Of a stretch of DNA of 12,678 bases, positions 1,943 through 12,585 are shown piece after piece. Position 1 is the stretch's first letter. Every line of letters starts with the position of its first letter. Source of the DNA: an uncultured Collinsella sp. (lineage in GTDB: Bacteria; Actinomycetota; Coriobacteriia; Coriobacteriales; Coriobacteriaceae); contig USIE01000024.1 of assembly GCA_900554645.1 (NCBI GenBank), positions 1 to 12,678 on the forward strand. Direction: 5' to 3'. The position numbers were made by a program, and so were the translations under genes. The notes under the pieces were generated by a model that saw nothing but the letters and a program-made list of their open reading frames with translations, was not told where the DNA came from and made no database searches.

Positions 1943-3514
1943 ATGGACGTCGCCGCATTCTTACTGGCTCTTGTGCCGATTATTTGGCTGGTCGTGATGC
2001 TGCTGTGCTTTAAATGGCCAGCTTGGAAGGCCGCTATCGGATCGTTTGTCCTTTCGTGCTTGCTTGCCTTCGCATGGTGGCACCTGCCGGCAGCGCAGAT
2101 CGCGACCGCCTCGCTCGAAGGTTTTTTGATGGCTCTGTGGCCCATCGTCCTAGTGATTATCGCCGCGGTATTCACGTATAACCTGTGCGTTCGCACGGGC
2201 GCCATGGACGTGATCGGCAGCATGATCACCTCCATCAGCAGCGACCGCCGTCTGCTGGTGCTGCTCGTGGCTTGGTGCTTCGGTGGCTTTATGGAGGGCA
2301 TGGCCGGTTTTGGCACTGCCGTCGCCATTCCTGCCGGCATGCTCGCGGGCCTGGGTTTTGAGGCCGTGCCTGCCGTGCTGATCTGCCTGCTAGCCAACGG
2401 TGTGCCCACGCCCTACGGCTCTATCGGCATTCCCACGGTGTCCGTTGCCGACCTGGTGGGCCTGGATTCCCTGCATTTGGCTACCATTCAGCTGGTGCAG
2501 CTCGCGCCCTTCTTTGTGGCGATGCCGCTGCTTATCGTGCTGGTTGCGGGTCGTGTTGCCGATGATCAGGGCAATGTTGCAAGCGTTGCAGAGCGCCTGA
2601 ACGGCGTTGCCGGCGTGGCACTGCTTTCTGGTGTGTCCTTTGTTGGTGCGGCCCTGGTCGTCGCCATGTTTGTGGGTCCCGAGCTGGCCGTGGTCGTAGG
2701 CTCCATCGTGTCGCTTGCGCTGACCGCCGCGCTTGCCATGCGCGCCGAGAAGTCCGGCCACCTGGATGCGCGCTTCCACATGAATATCGAGGCGGGGGAG
2801 AAGCTCACCGTTAAGTCGGCGCTTTCGGCCTGGTCGTGCTTCATCCTGATCTTTGTGTTGCTGCTGGGCACGTCTAACCTGGTGCCCGCTGTACATGCCG
2901 CGCTCGCGCCGTTTGCGAGCCACGTGCAGGTGTATTGCGGTGAGAATCCCGGTACGCTTACGTTTTCGTGGATCAACACGCCGGGCGTCTGGATTTTCCT
3001 GGCGGCGTTTGTCGGCGGTGCCATTCAGGGTGCTTCGCCGCGAATGATGGGCGAGGTGCTGGCCGCGACTGTGAAGCAGATGATGCCGACGGTTATCACC
3101 ATGCTTTCGGTGCTGGGCTGCGCCAAGGTGATGGGCTATGCCGGCATGATTTCGTCGATCAGCGCGTTTTGCATTGCGGTCGCCGGCGGCCTGTACCCGA
3201 TTCTGGCTCCGTGGATCGGTGCGGTCGGTGCGTTCGTGACCGGTTCGGGCACATCTTCGGGCATGCTGTTTGGCCCCATTCAGAGCCAGGCTGCCACTGC
3301 GCTGGGTGTGAGCGACTACTGGATGGTCGCGTTGAACGCCCTGGGCGTCGCCTCCGGTAAGATGATCTCGCCGCAGACACTCGCCATTGGTCTTGCCGCC
3401 GTGCACGTGCGCGGTAAGGATGCCGAGCTCCTAGGCGCGGTGCTGCCCTACGCTGCCGGCATGCTGGTCCTGATGAGCGCCATAGCCATGCTCGGCCAAG
3501 GCCTGCCGCTGTAG
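1943..3514 (+). CDS. lctP: L-lactate permease (LctP family)
   Basis: A 523-residue secondary transporter of the lactate permease family (TC 2.A.14), which carries L-lactate, and in some members glycolate, with protons across the cytoplasmic membrane. The protein is hydrophobic throughout, with about 12-14 TM helices. Family-typical glycine-rich stretches are visible: GFGTAVAIPAG (about 120-130), then a PTPYGSIGIPT segment, and near the C-terminus GSGTSSGMLFGPIQSQ. Length is close to the usual 530-570. The ATG is preceded by AAGGAG at a 9-nt spacing. It lies upstream of pckA but 251 bp separates them, with a large inverted repeat between, so they are probably separate transcription units. Lactate uptake (or export) next to PEP carboxykinase fits a fermentative or gluconeogenic lactate metabolism. 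Substrate specificity is inferred from family only. Confidence 0.88.
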   Translation: MDVAAFLLALVPIIWLVVMLLCFKWPAWKAAIGSFVLSCLLAFAWWHLPAAQIATASLEGFLMALWPIVLVIIAAVFTYNLCVRTGAMDVIGSMITSISSDRRLLVLLVAWCFGGFMEGMAGFGTAVAIPAGMLAGLGFEAVPAVLICLLANGVPTPYGSIGIPTVSVADLVGLDSLHLATIQLVQLAPFFVAMPLLIVLVAGRVADDQGNVASVAERLNGVAGVALLSGVSFVGAALVVAMFVGPELAVVVGSIVSLALTAALAMRAEKSGHLDARFHMNIEAGEKLTVKSALSAWSCFILIFVLLLGTSNLVPAVHAALAPFASHVQVYCGENPGTLTFSWINTPGVWIFLAAFVGGAIQGASPRMMGEVLAATVKQMMPTVITMLSVLGCAKVMGYAGMISSISAFCIAVAGGLYPILAPWIGAVGAFVTGSGTSSGMLFGPIQSQAATALGVSDYWMVALNALGVASGKMISPQTLAIGLAAVHVRGKDAELLGAVLPYAAGMLVLMSAIAMLGQGLPL

Positions 3515-3574
3515 TCGGCACTCAGGGACGTTCCTTATGTGCCGGCACTTTGGGAACGTCCCTAAGTGCCGGCA
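3515..3574. repeat. Compound inverted repeat abutting the permease stop codon
   Basis: Two 20-nt arms (3515-3534 and 3553-3572) match as inverted copies at 18 of 20 positions. They share AGGGACGTTCC / GGAACGTCCCT and the CGGCACT / AGTGCCG ends. The 18-nt loop itself contains the perfect palindrome GTGCCGGCAC (3539-3548), so the GCCGGCAC-type module occurs three times. The left arm starts on the base after the permease stop. It looks like a dispersed REP-like element that also acts as a transcription terminator, although no T-run follows. Confidence 0.7.
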
Positions 3575-3675
3575 TCCGGGGTCGCTCCTTGGTTGTTGCC
3601 TGTTCAAGAGTGTCCCTAACGACTAGGCCGCTTGCATGCGATTTTTGACCGTTGGGCGGGCGCTTCGCCGTTGCC

Positions 3676-9922: not shown

Positions 9923-11122
9923 CTAGCGCCTGTGGTGGCGCTCCTCCCTGCGTTCTTCTGCCGCCTGCTCCTCCTGCTTAAAGGCGGGATCGTCGGGGGT
10001 GACGAGCTCGTCCTCGTGCGTGCGCTTGTTGTAATGGTGGCGCAGCACGGGCTCAAACAGGTGCAGGTGCTTGGCAAAGGCCGCCGAGCCAATGGCGAGT
10101 ACGGTAAAGATGAGCACGCGCATGGGCACCTCGACCTGGTTAATCGCGGCGGCGCCGGCCGAAAGCATGATGCACCAGGCGTAGATGAGGAGCACTGCCT
10201 GCTTTTGGTTGTAGCCCTCTTGGATCAGGCGGTGGTGGATGTGGCCCTTGTCGGCCTGCCCGATGCTAATGTGGGCGCGCTTGCGGCGCACGATGGCGCT
10301 AAACGTGTCGATGATGGGCACGCCGGCAACGATGAGCGGGATGATAAGCGAGGTGAGCGCGGCGGTGCGGCTCACGTTGAGCAGCGAGATGGAGCCCAGT
10401 GCAAAGCCCAGAAGCAGCGACCCCGAGTCGCCCAAGAAGATGCTTGCGGGGTTGAAGTTGTAGCGCAAAAAGGCCAGACAGGCGCCAAAGAGCGCAATGG
10501 AGAGCGCGGCGGCGTCGATGCGGCCCGAGAGAACGGCCATCGAAAACATGGTGAACGACGCGATGCCGCAGATGCCCGTGGCCAAGCCGTCGAGGCCGTC
10601 GATGAGGTTAATGATGTTGGTGAATGCCACCAGATAGATCACGGTGATGGGGTAGGCGAGCCATCCGAGCATGATCTCGCCGGGGGCAAACGGGTTGACG
10701 ATGACGCCGATGCGCAGGCCGCCCACGCAGGCGATGAGCGCGGCGAGGACCTGACCGGCCAGTTTTTGCTTGGGCTTGAGCTGGATGACGTCGTCGATAG
10801 CGCCGGTCGCAAAGATGACGGTAAAGGAGAGCGCCAGCATGGGATAGCTAATGTGAAGGCGCGGGTGCGGCACCAGGACGGGCGGCCAGCCTAGGTGCCA
10901 GGTGCCTAGGATTTGCACAATGCAGGCAACGACCAGGCCCAAAAACACCGCCGTTCCGCCCAAACGCGGGATGGGCTTGGTGTTGATGCGGCGCTTAGAA
11001 GGATAGTCGACGGCGTCGAGCTTAATTGCCAAGCGCTTGACCAGGGGCACCGTGAGGAAGGTCGTGATAAAGGCCGCCGCTGCCACGCATAGGTACGGTA
11101 TGTAGCTCGGGGATGAAGCCAT
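9923..11122 (-). CDS. WecA/TagO-type undecaprenyl-phosphate HexNAc-1-phosphate transferase
   Basis: A 399-residue polytopic membrane enzyme moving GlcNAc-1-P (or a related sugar phosphate) from UDP-sugar to undecaprenyl phosphate, the first step of cell-wall glycopolymer or O-antigen-like synthesis. Family motifs are complete: DAVDYPSKRRINTKPIPRLGG (36-56), the Mg-binding Asp pair at 110-111, NIINLIDGLDGLATG (169-183), FLGDSGS (229-235) and HIHHRL (294-299). About 11 TM helices; the C-terminus (360-399) is a charged cytoplasmic tail. The start is uncertain: the frame is open to 11242, but the Met at 11122 places TM1 as in TagO/WecA. No clear Shine-Dalgarno precedes it, so a leaderless or weakly initiated mRNA is possible. 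No MurNAc-pentapeptide context, so MraY is unlikely. Confidence 0.88.
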   Translation of the reverse strand: MASSPSYIPYLCVAAAAFITTFLTVPLVKRLAIKLDAVDYPSKRRINTKPIPRLGGTAVFLGLVVACIVQILGTWHLGWPPVLVPHPRLHISYPMLALSFTVIFATGAIDDVIQLKPKQKLAGQVLAALIACVGGLRIGVIVNPFAPGEIMLGWLAYPITVIYLVAFTNIINLIDGLDGLATGICGIASFTMFSMAVLSGRIDAAALSIALFGACLAFLRYNFNPASIFLGDSGSLLLGFALGSISLLNVSRTAALTSLIIPLIVAGVPIIDTFSAIVRRKRAHISIGQADKGHIHHRLIQEGYNQKQAVLLIYAWCIMLSAGAAAINQVEVPMRVLIFTVLAIGSAAFAKHLHLFEPVLRHHYNKRTHEDELVTPDDPAFKQEEQAAEERREERHHRR

Positions 11123-11313
11123 GAATCTAAAAACCGCCAAGCGTCGAAGGAAAAGGTCAAAGGTTGCTAAGCGCAAAGGGCATAGCCGAACCATGATACT
11201 CGACCAAGGGGGGTGCATGGAATTGCACGCAGCGATAATCACGCGCTTACCAGATATTGGGATGTTGTCGATGGATTGTCGGGATACCGGCGGGGATCCA
11301 TATGGGCTGTAAT
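11123..11313. other. Upstream region of the WecA/TagO-type gene
   Basis: No gene is credible here. On the minus strand TTGGTC, 17 bp, TATGCC offers a weak promoter about 70-100 bp before the assumed start, and TTGACC lies closer but without a matching -10. A direct repeat TTGTCG occurs twice at an 11-bp step near 11268-11284. The in-frame extension of the transferase covers most of this stretch but carries no ribosome site or family sequence. Confidence 0.3.
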
Positions 11314-11340
11314 GGTGGTTTTCGGCAAATAAAAACCACC
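11314..11340. repeat. Inverted repeat overlapping the 3' end of the ncRNA
   Basis: GGTGGTTTT (11314-11322) and AAAACCACC (11332-11340) are perfect inverted copies with a 9-nt loop. They are the same outer 9-mers as in the four hairpin repeats but turned inside out. The right copy overlaps the 3' closing-stem strand of the ncRNA and its U-run, so pairing here would compete with that stem. Confidence 0.45.
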
Positions 11341-11498
11341 CCCCACGTTACGAAAATGAACCCACCTAAAACAGGTGGGTGCCCTCATCGACTGTTCCAG
11401 CGTCCTTAACAACGAAGGATACCTGTACTAGGTACGACTGTGTGGGCTCCCTAAATAAACGCGACGGTTCACCCAGTTGCTCCGCGGGGGGCGGAATA
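11329..11498 (-). ncRNA. Structured non-coding RNA, probable 6S RNA
   Basis: An RNA of about 170 nt on the minus strand folds by hand into a rod. The 12-bp closing stem joins 11483-11494 to 11336-11347 (two G-U pairs) and is followed by UUUUUAUUU. Inside, 11466-11473 pairs with 11355-11362 (8 bp, two G-U). Then 11444-11451 pairs with 11377-11384 (7 of 8). Between these helices the 5' strand leaves 14 open nt (11452-11465), while the 3' strand forms a 4-bp hairpin (ACCT 11364-11367, AGGT 11373-11376). The apical part holds two hairpins (11403-11419, 11420-11434). A closing stem, large central bubble with a 3'-strand hairpin and an apical arm is the 6S plan; 6S RNA binds housekeeping RNA polymerase by mimicking an open promoter. 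Family not verified; the raiA-motif RNA is the main alternative. Confidence 0.6.
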
Positions 11499-11503
11499 CC
11501 TAC

Positions 11504-11509
11504 ATCATA
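11504..11509 (-). promoter_or_regulatory. -10 box of the ncRNA promoter
   Basis: TATGAT on the minus strand (5 of 6 to TATAAT) puts the start site near 11497-11499, just before the closing-stem strand of the ncRNA. The -35 (CTGGAA at 11527-11532, 17-bp spacer) is weak. This supports the minus strand as the sense strand of the RNA. Confidence 0.45.
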
Positions 11510-11534
11510 AAGCGGCACTTTATCGATTCCAGTC

Positions 11535-11563
11535 TTGACATTACAAAAATCGTGTCGGACGAT
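11535..11563 (+). promoter_or_regulatory. Candidate promoter for the radical SAM gene
   Basis: A perfect -35 TTGACA (11535-11540) is followed after 17 bp by a weak -10 GACGAT (11558-11563). The start would be near 11570, about 75 nt before the gene. It stands back-to-back with the ncRNA promoter: the two -35 regions are only a few bases apart. Confidence 0.4.
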
Positions 11564-11646
11564 TACGGCGCCTTGGGCTCGAGCCGTCTGTGCGGTTGGT
11601 CCCTTTACGTTTGAGCTGCTGAATCGTTGTTTTGGAGCATGTTTTT

Positions 11647-12585
11647 ATGCCGACGCCGTTGACCGAACTTTTTTCGCCCGCCTGCCATTTGTGTCCGCGC
11701 CGTTGCGGTGCGGTGCGCGACGAGGGTGCGCACGGCGTATGCGGTGCCGATGACACGCTCAAGGTGGCCCGCGCGGCGCTTCATATGTGGGAGGAGCCGC
11801 CTATCTCGGGCGAGGCCGGTTCGGGCACGATCTTCTTTAGCGGCTGCTCGCTCAAATGTATCTATTGCCAGAACCACGAGATCTCGACGGGCAATTTCGG
11901 GCTTGAGATTTCGCCCGAGCGCCTGGTCGAGATTATGCTGGAGCTGCAGGACCAAGGTGCCAATAACATCAATCTGGTGACGGCGACGCATTATGCTCAC
12001 CTGCTGCCGGCCGCGATTGCCGCAGCTCGGGAGCGCGGACTGGTCATTCCAATCGTCTACAACACGAGCGGTTATGAGCGTGCGGGTGCCGTGGCGGCGC
12101 TCGGCGATTTGGTCGACGTGTGGCTTACCGACTTTAAGTATGCCAATGCGGCGCTTGCGCAGTCACTCTCTCATATTAAGGACTACCCGCGCGTGGCTGT
12201 GTCGGGTCTGGCCCAGATGGCGCGCGAAATTGAGCGCCGCGGGGGAGAGCTGGTAGACGGGGACGGGCTCATGAAGCGCGGCATAATCGTGCGTCATCTG
12301 GTGCTGCCGGGGCATGCGGACGATTCGTGCCGCGTGTTGGACCTGGTGTGGCAGACGGTGGGCGACGTGCCGATCTCGGTCATGAACCAGTACACGCCCA
12401 ATGCCCTCATGCGCGAACAAGGCGGCGACCTGGCGCGCGCCGTGACGCGCGAGGAGTACGAGCAGGTGCTCGACCATGCCGACGACCTGGGCTTTACGAC
12501 GATGTTTTGGCAAGAAGGCGGAGCGGTAGACGAGAGCTTCACCCCGGCGTTCGACACCACCGGCGTCCTCACCAGCGCAAAGTAG
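11647..12585 (+). CDS. Radical SAM protein, PflA-like (COG1313/PflX type)
   Basis: A 312-residue cytosolic iron-sulfur protein that should bind a [4Fe-4S] cluster and S-adenosylmethionine to start radical chemistry. The cluster motif is CSLKCIYC (Cys67, Cys71, Cys74) within GTIFFSGCSLKCIYCQNHEIS. Ahead of it lies a conserved four-Cys region (Cys13, 16, 20, 32: CHLCPRRC...GVCG), usual in this subfamily and perhaps a second metal site. Later motifs fit the partial TIM barrel: VTATHYAHLLPA, VYNTSGYE, VWLTDFKY and ISVMNQYTP. These proteins resemble pyruvate formate-lyase activase, but their own substrate is not known. I chose the ATG at 11647, 9 nt after GGAG; a TTG five codons earlier overlaps that site. 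No glycyl-radical enzyme gene is adjacent in the window. Confidence 0.88.
   Translation: MPTPLTELFSPACHLCPRRCGAVRDEGAHGVCGADDTLKVARAALHMWEEPPISGEAGSGTIFFSGCSLKCIYCQNHEISTGNFGLEISPERLVEIMLELQDQGANNINLVTATHYAHLLPAAIAAARERGLVIPIVYNTSGYERAGAVAALGDLVDVWLTDFKYANAALAQSLSHIKDYPRVAVSGLAQMAREIERRGGELVDGDGLMKRGIIVRHLVLPGHADDSCRVLDLVWQTVGDVPISVMNQYTPNALMREQGGDLARAVTREEYEQVLDHADDLGFTTMFWQEGGAVDESFTPAFDTTGVLTSAK

Follow-up and report, generated by a model that had tools for sequence, protein, structure and literature searches.

The stretch analysed here, called the window throughout, comprises 12,678 nucleotides from an uncultured Collinsella sp. The source genome was placed near C. aerofaciens because the protein of the last gene in the window is 99% identical to its counterpart in C. 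aerofaciens 1001099B_141217_A1. On the minus strand, between a wecA-like glycosyltransferase gene and a divergently oriented radical-SAM gene, lies a gene for a structured RNA, whose elements are collected in Table 1. The radical-SAM protein, which we take to be AmrS-like, has weak NCBIfam matches (NrdG2 and PflA type) that lie far under the curated cut-offs.

Table 1. Position of the RNA gene, its structural and promoter elements and the flanking genes in the window
Feature	Position	Strand	Evidence or remark
wecA-like glycosyltransferase gene	9923-11242	minus	PF00953
RNA gene, very probably 6S RNA (ssrS), about 165-170 nt	11330-11498	minus	RF00013 31.5 bits over 11333-11496; R1 162.5 bits
U-run (TTTTT)	11335-11331	minus	directly after P1 3' strand
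Closing stem P1, 3' strand	11336-11347	minus	pairs with 11494-11483
P2, 3' strand GGTTCATTT	11354-11362	minus	partner of GGGTGAACC
3' central-bubble hairpin ACCCACCTG..AGGTGGGT	11360-11380	minus	presumed release switch; bases common to P2 and P3
P3, 3' strand GGGCACCC	11377-11384	minus	partner of GGGAGCCC
Apical stem-loop, CAG/CTG enclosing TCCTT/AAGGA	11398-11425	minus	two-sided changes in 8/8 pairs
P3, 5' strand GGGAGCCC	11444-11451	minus	97.6% of cells paired
Open 5' central-bubble strand, 14 nt	11452-11465	minus	predicted pRNA +1 opposite C11463
P2 (downstream helix), 5' strand GGGTGAACC	11466-11474	minus	TGAACC:GGTTCA pairing; presumed pRNA template
Closing stem P1, 5' strand	11483-11494	minus	12 bp; swap control
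-10 box TATGAT	11504-11509	minus	sequence
Near-palindromic element GTCAAGACT, -35 region, candidate operator	11531-11539	minus	about 21 nt upstream of -10 box
Radical-SAM gene, divergent	11632-12585	plus	flanks the RNA on its other side

Predicted fold of the RNA

The minimum free energy (MFE) of the RNA is -70.2 kcal/mol, compared with a mean of -52.8 kcal/mol for dinucleotide shuffles (z = -4.05), and none of 200 shuffles reached so low a value. An earlier note on this DNA had drawn a 6S-like architecture from the letters, and most of its elements are present: a 12-bp closing stem followed by a U-run, two further helices (P2 and P3), a 14-nt open 5' bubble strand with a hairpin opposite it in the 3' strand, and a TATGAT -10 box upstream. 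Its two adjacent apical hairpins hold for the single-sequence MFE and were rejected as a conserved feature, the first of them (UACCU/AGGUA) pairing in 61 of 110 cells across 22 sequences and in 35 of 75 cells across the 15 more distant ones. The conserved apical fold is instead a single covarying stem-loop, with CAG:CUG around UCCUU:AAGGA. Likewise, the hairpin with which the MFE closes the 5' bubble lacks conservation, pairing in 73 of 150 cells of the 15 more distant sequences. With the covarying helices retained, the best fold has an energy of -64.3 kcal/mol, about 6 kcal/mol above the MFE. The closing stem with its U-run may double as a terminator; a terminator scan did not report this stem, and its sole terminator-like match was the 3'-bubble hairpin.

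The RNA matches the 6S family of Rfam

The whole window was searched with cmscan against the 4227 families of Rfam 15, at E-values up to 10. The 6S family, RF00013, gave the top match over the whole window and all families, with 31.5 bits and an E-value of 0.0026, and spanned model positions 1-187 of 187. This score falls short of the RF00013 gathering cut-off of 46.4 bits, which is a curator's threshold; the structural features of 6S RNA were judged separately. No other Rfam family matched at 11330-11498 within the same limit. The raiA RNA, offered by the earlier note as an alternative, is absent from the six Rfam matches of the window, and both raiA and all remaining families were ruled out at the locus.

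RF00013 also matched in 50 of 58 relatives, each of the 50 having a best E-value no higher than 0.0152, and one of the 58 lay above the cut-off. At the lax limit used in this search 7 of 14 control genomes matched as well, and weak second matches at that limit were therefore regarded as chance. In the 296 sampled genomes of the class Coriobacteriia, RF00013 matched 274 at E-values up to 0.1, of which 52 lay above the cut-off, while 4 of 14 named control genomes matched, all four above the cut-off. The highest score in the class, 87.5 bits, was obtained for a genome of a deeper lineage (G172).

A 6S-like shape is shared by Ms1, described as the 6S-like RNA of most Actinobacteria, present in mycobacteria and Streptomyces, which binds core RNA polymerase without sigma (PMC9130861). 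The locus of Ms1 differs from the one described here. Sequence does not tell core from holoenzyme binding, a point in favour of an Ms1-like RNA, which we nevertheless consider quite improbable. Rfam includes an Ms1 family, according to PMC9130861, and RF00013 was the only family matched here; moreover, the class holds the 52 matches above the 6S cut-off, deeper relatives have aspS and rarA as neighbours, and the pRNA start and the 3'-bubble hairpin are kept, as described below.

The helices covary among relatives

The structure on which covariation was scored has 37 pairs and was drawn with the help of the window's sequence and the Rfam alignment. MAFFT was used to align the window with 21 relatives by sequence only (mean column identity 62%). 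In this alignment 83.8% of the cells paired, compared with 77.0% in shuffled and at most 55.9% in slid alignments. Two-sided changes were found in 21 of the 37 pairs, a number that 1 of 500 shuffles attained; the count of further pair types was less decisive, being equalled in 42 of 500. The seeds had been picked with RF00013, and covariation was therefore recounted on loci fetched by means of the adjoining radical-SAM protein (window and 26 sequences). These gave two-sided changes in 15 of the 37 pairs and 86.5% of cells paired, and none of 500 shuffles was as high on either measure, while the number of pair types was no higher than in shuffles (389 of 500 reached it). P2 was invariant in these loci, and the closing stem, as aligned, paired in 65.3% of the cells.

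A third alignment, of 60 rows fitted to the model, 32 of them from the order of the window, had two-sided changes in 30 of the 37 pairs. Here P2, P3 and the apical stem paired in 91-98% of cells: 96.3% for the TGAACC:GGTTCA pairing of P2, and 95.4, 95.4 and 91.1% for helices 6-8, which make up the apical stem-loop. Pairing was lower, at 65.8%, in the short helix that connects P3 with the apical stem. Since the closing stem is poorly aligned by sequence, it was evaluated by swapping strands between 37 sequences. The mean duplex energy was -32.9 kcal/mol for a sequence's own strands and -18.8 kcal/mol for foreign ones; the own partner was the best in 23 of the 37, and in 34 at most two others equalled it.

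Distribution in the class and the phylum

The MAFFT alignment of the window and 21 relatives was used to build a lineage model, R1, which matches the window over positions 1-167 of 167 with 162.5 bits, the window being one of the 22 rows behind the model. R1 matched 284 of the 296 class genomes and 264 of the 268 good-quality ones, with one match per matched genome and two matches in a single genome. No match was found in 12 of the 296; when these 12 were searched again at a laxer limit, a weak partial match (E = 0.046) turned up at the edge of a contig in one of them, and the remaining 11 still had none. Because the seeds of R1 were picked with RF00013, its agreement with the 6S family is partly selected for. 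When loci were picked by protein, R1 scored 126.6-163.5 bits in 39 of 66. In deeper class members R1 and RF00013 match the same place, for example with 84.7 and 87.5 bits in G172.

In a sample of 396 genomes from the phylum, RF00013 at E-values up to 0.01 matched 131, of which 90 lay above the cut-off. Thirty-eight of the 131 belong to the class of the window, with one above the cut-off, and 93 lie outside it, with 89 above the cut-off; the denominator for the genomes outside the class is 358 provided that all the unlisted misses come from outside it as well, which the ordering of the list suggests. R1 was weaker in this sample and matched 59 of the 396 genomes at E-values up to 1.

Gene neighbourhood and descent

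The neighbours of the RNA were compared in 30 deeper loci: 21 from the class outside the order of the window, 2 from the order, and 7 from the phylum outside the class. In 25 of these loci a same-strand gene for AspS lies on the 5' side, and in 22 a gene for RarA lies on the 3' side; 20 loci have both. The seven loci from outside the class (L208-L214) all have AspS on the 5' side, and their 6S matches lie above the Rfam cut-off. Loci of the order itself vary: rarA, or hisS together with aspS, adjoins the RNA in some, the wecA-like and radical-SAM genes do so in the window and its nearer relatives, and several loci have none of these neighbours.

In B. subtilis, too, aspS is close to the 6S-1 gene. 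The rarA gene adjoins the 6S gene in lactic acid bacteria and lies near 6S-1 of B. subtilis (PMC8414754). Many of the deeper loci have a rarA neighbourhood of the 6S-1 type, as do several families within the order; the window does not. Unlike here, 6S RNA in Proteobacteria is located beside ygfA (PMC9130861). The simplest reading is that the gene in the window is a moved descendant of an aspS-6S-rarA locus.

The RNA lies upstream of the glycosyltransferase gene and on the same strand, as would a leader of this gene that merely resembled 6S RNA. From one lineage to another, though, the RNA stays while the genes around it and their orientation change, and a leader of the wecA-like gene was ruled out on this ground; with raiA unmatched at E-values up to 10, some other structured RNA of this or the raiA type is less probable still than an Ms1-like one.

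Promoter and upstream element

The TATGAT box is part of a conserved pattern: of the 60 aligned rows, 58 have TANNNT no more than 32 nt upstream, compared with 43% of mononucleotide shuffles. A consensus scan of the window reported no sigma-70 site with both hexamers, and the promoter assignment therefore rests on the conserved -10 box.

That the locus holds a decayed 6S gene which has lost its transcription is the least credible of the alternatives, for although the window and 57 of 58 relatives do not reach the RF00013 cut-off (8 of the 57 having no match whatever), compensatory changes are found inside near lineages, the lineage model scores high at protein-picked loci, and the -10 box is kept.

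Among the 60 aligned rows, the element GTCAAGACT in the -35 region was found only in those from the order of the window: 18 of these 32 rows have it, and four more of the 32 carry GTCAAGTCT. In some relatives the element is a full palindrome, AAGTC-AA-GACTT. Four genomes were searched for an extended pattern of GTCAAGACT; two of them contain it, once each, and in both it lies shortly before the 6S gene. Similarly, AAGTCAAGACT was found four times among six genomes; three of these occurrences lie immediately upstream of 6S, and the other three genomes contain none. In this small sample of six genomes AAGTCAAGACT is nearly specific to 6S, and a general promoter element was therefore rejected for the site. 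In lactic acid bacteria, cre sites are described over the -35 region of 6S promoters (PMC8414754); GTCAAGACT may be an operator through which a regulator acts on the 6S gene here too.

pRNA start and 3'-bubble hairpin

The 5'-bubble letters around the pRNA start align with those of E. coli 6S RNA in the RF00013 consensus. In E. coli the pRNA starts at U44 (PMC8876501), and the equivalent base is a pyrimidine in 59 of the 60 rows (49 C, 10 T) and A in the remaining one. Behind the predicted start all 60 rows have CC, which places GG at pRNA positions 4/5; GG at positions 4/5 or 5/6 is described as a key conserved feature of pRNAs (PMC8414754). The same source gives an adenine adjoining the pRNA start, where Collinsella has G.

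In all 60 rows a hairpin of one kind or another, with 4 or more base pairs, can form in the 3'-bubble segment, with a mean z of -4.0 against mononucleotide shuffles and 55 rows below -2. In deeper lineages the hairpin is mostly ACCUGC/GCAGGU, about 6 bp long, and in most Coriobacteriales rows it is CCCACCU/AGGUGGG, of 7-8 bp, and up to 9 bp in the window. One locus (L206) has its stem re-paired as CATCTTT/AAAGATG; among the exceptions, L210 and L213 fold a different hairpin and L116 a weak one. The hairpin shares bases with P2, and in Coriobacteriales also with P3.

In E. coli, a 9-bp hairpin of the 3' bubble, in competition with P2, drives release of the polymerase, while release from B. subtilis 6S-1 is aided by a central bubble collapse helix (PMC8876501). 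The Coriobacteriales RNA resembles E. coli 6S RNA in its long 3'-bubble hairpin and in the competition of this hairpin with P2. It differs in that most Coriobacteriales rows use the CCC of P3 as the 5' arm of the hairpin, which therefore competes with both flanking helices. We infer that its geometry is nearer the E. coli kind than that of B. subtilis 6S-1.

Identity of the RNA

Taken as a member of RF00013, the RNA shares with B. subtilis 6S-1 and the 6S RNAs of lactic acid bacteria its size, closing stem, P2, P3, apical stem-loop, open 5' bubble, 3'-bubble hairpin, pyrimidine pRNA start and GG at pRNA positions 4/5, and its deeper relatives share the nearby rarA (PMC8414754). It differs in its score below the Rfam cut-off, in not adjoining aspS or rarA, and in having G, not A, beside the pRNA start. 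The full-length RF00013 match, the covariation of the helices, the aspS and rarA neighbours in deeper relatives, the near-universal single match in the class and the details specific to 6S RNA lead us to conclude that the minus strand of 11330-11498 is, with high probability, the 6S RNA gene of a Collinsella, as the earlier note had proposed.

Proposed function and mechanism

By analogy with known 6S RNAs, this RNA likely sequesters the primary-sigma RNA polymerase and is freed from it by pRNA synthesis. The rod with its open bubble would mimic an open promoter and occupy the primary-sigma polymerase, mainly during slowed growth. When NTPs return, the polymerase would use the 5' strand of the bubble and of P2 as a template, starting opposite C11463, and the pRNA would begin GACGGUUCACCC. 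Its synthesis would open P2, whereupon the 3'-bubble strand would close into its hairpin by recruiting GG from P2 and CCC from P3. Closure of the hairpin would be followed by loss of sigma, leaving the polymerase free.

We further propose, as a tentative and rather doubtful extension, that 6S RNA of Coriobacteriales is a two-sided switch. The lengthened 3'-bubble hairpin would compete with both P2 and P3 and so link the freeing of the polymerase to refolding of the RNA at both ends of the bubble; the gene in the window, out of the aspS-rarA locus, would have come under a lineage-specific regulator acting through the 6S-specific near-palindromic site in the -35 region.

6S RNA in the Actinobacteria

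6S RNA is described as widespread except in Actinobacteria, save for a candidate in Streptomyces (PMC9130861, PMC11077062). Our literature search found 6S RNA joined neither with Coriobacter or Eggerthella (the survey by Wehner et al. 2014 was outside its reach) nor together with aspS and rarA, and for further genus names it appeared in none among the matches listed. As far as checked, 6S RNA is thus new for the class Coriobacteriia, and its near-universality in one class corrects the published exception of the Actinobacteria. The 284 of 296 sampled Coriobacteriia genomes, together with the 89 sampled genomes from outside the class above the cut-off, suggest that 6S RNA has a long history in the phylum and that only part of the phylum lacks it. 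If so, the relation between Ms1 and 6S RNA becomes open to comparison. The results also point to an annotation gap: the curated cut-off alone leaves 244 of the 296 class genomes without a 6S gene, 22 of which are unmatched at E-values up to 0.1.

Additional observations

One class genome rated 100% complete (G250) has no 6S RNA found by either R1 or RF00013, for which an assembly gap, loss or strong divergence are alternative explanations. At 3500-3600 the window contains an imperfect intergenic palindrome of about 80 bp, which miRNA models match below their cut-offs. Dispersed related copies are present in Collinsella, with 18-21 matches per genome in four genomes, often on both strands of one place, and the palindrome therefore looks like a REP- or MITE-like element.
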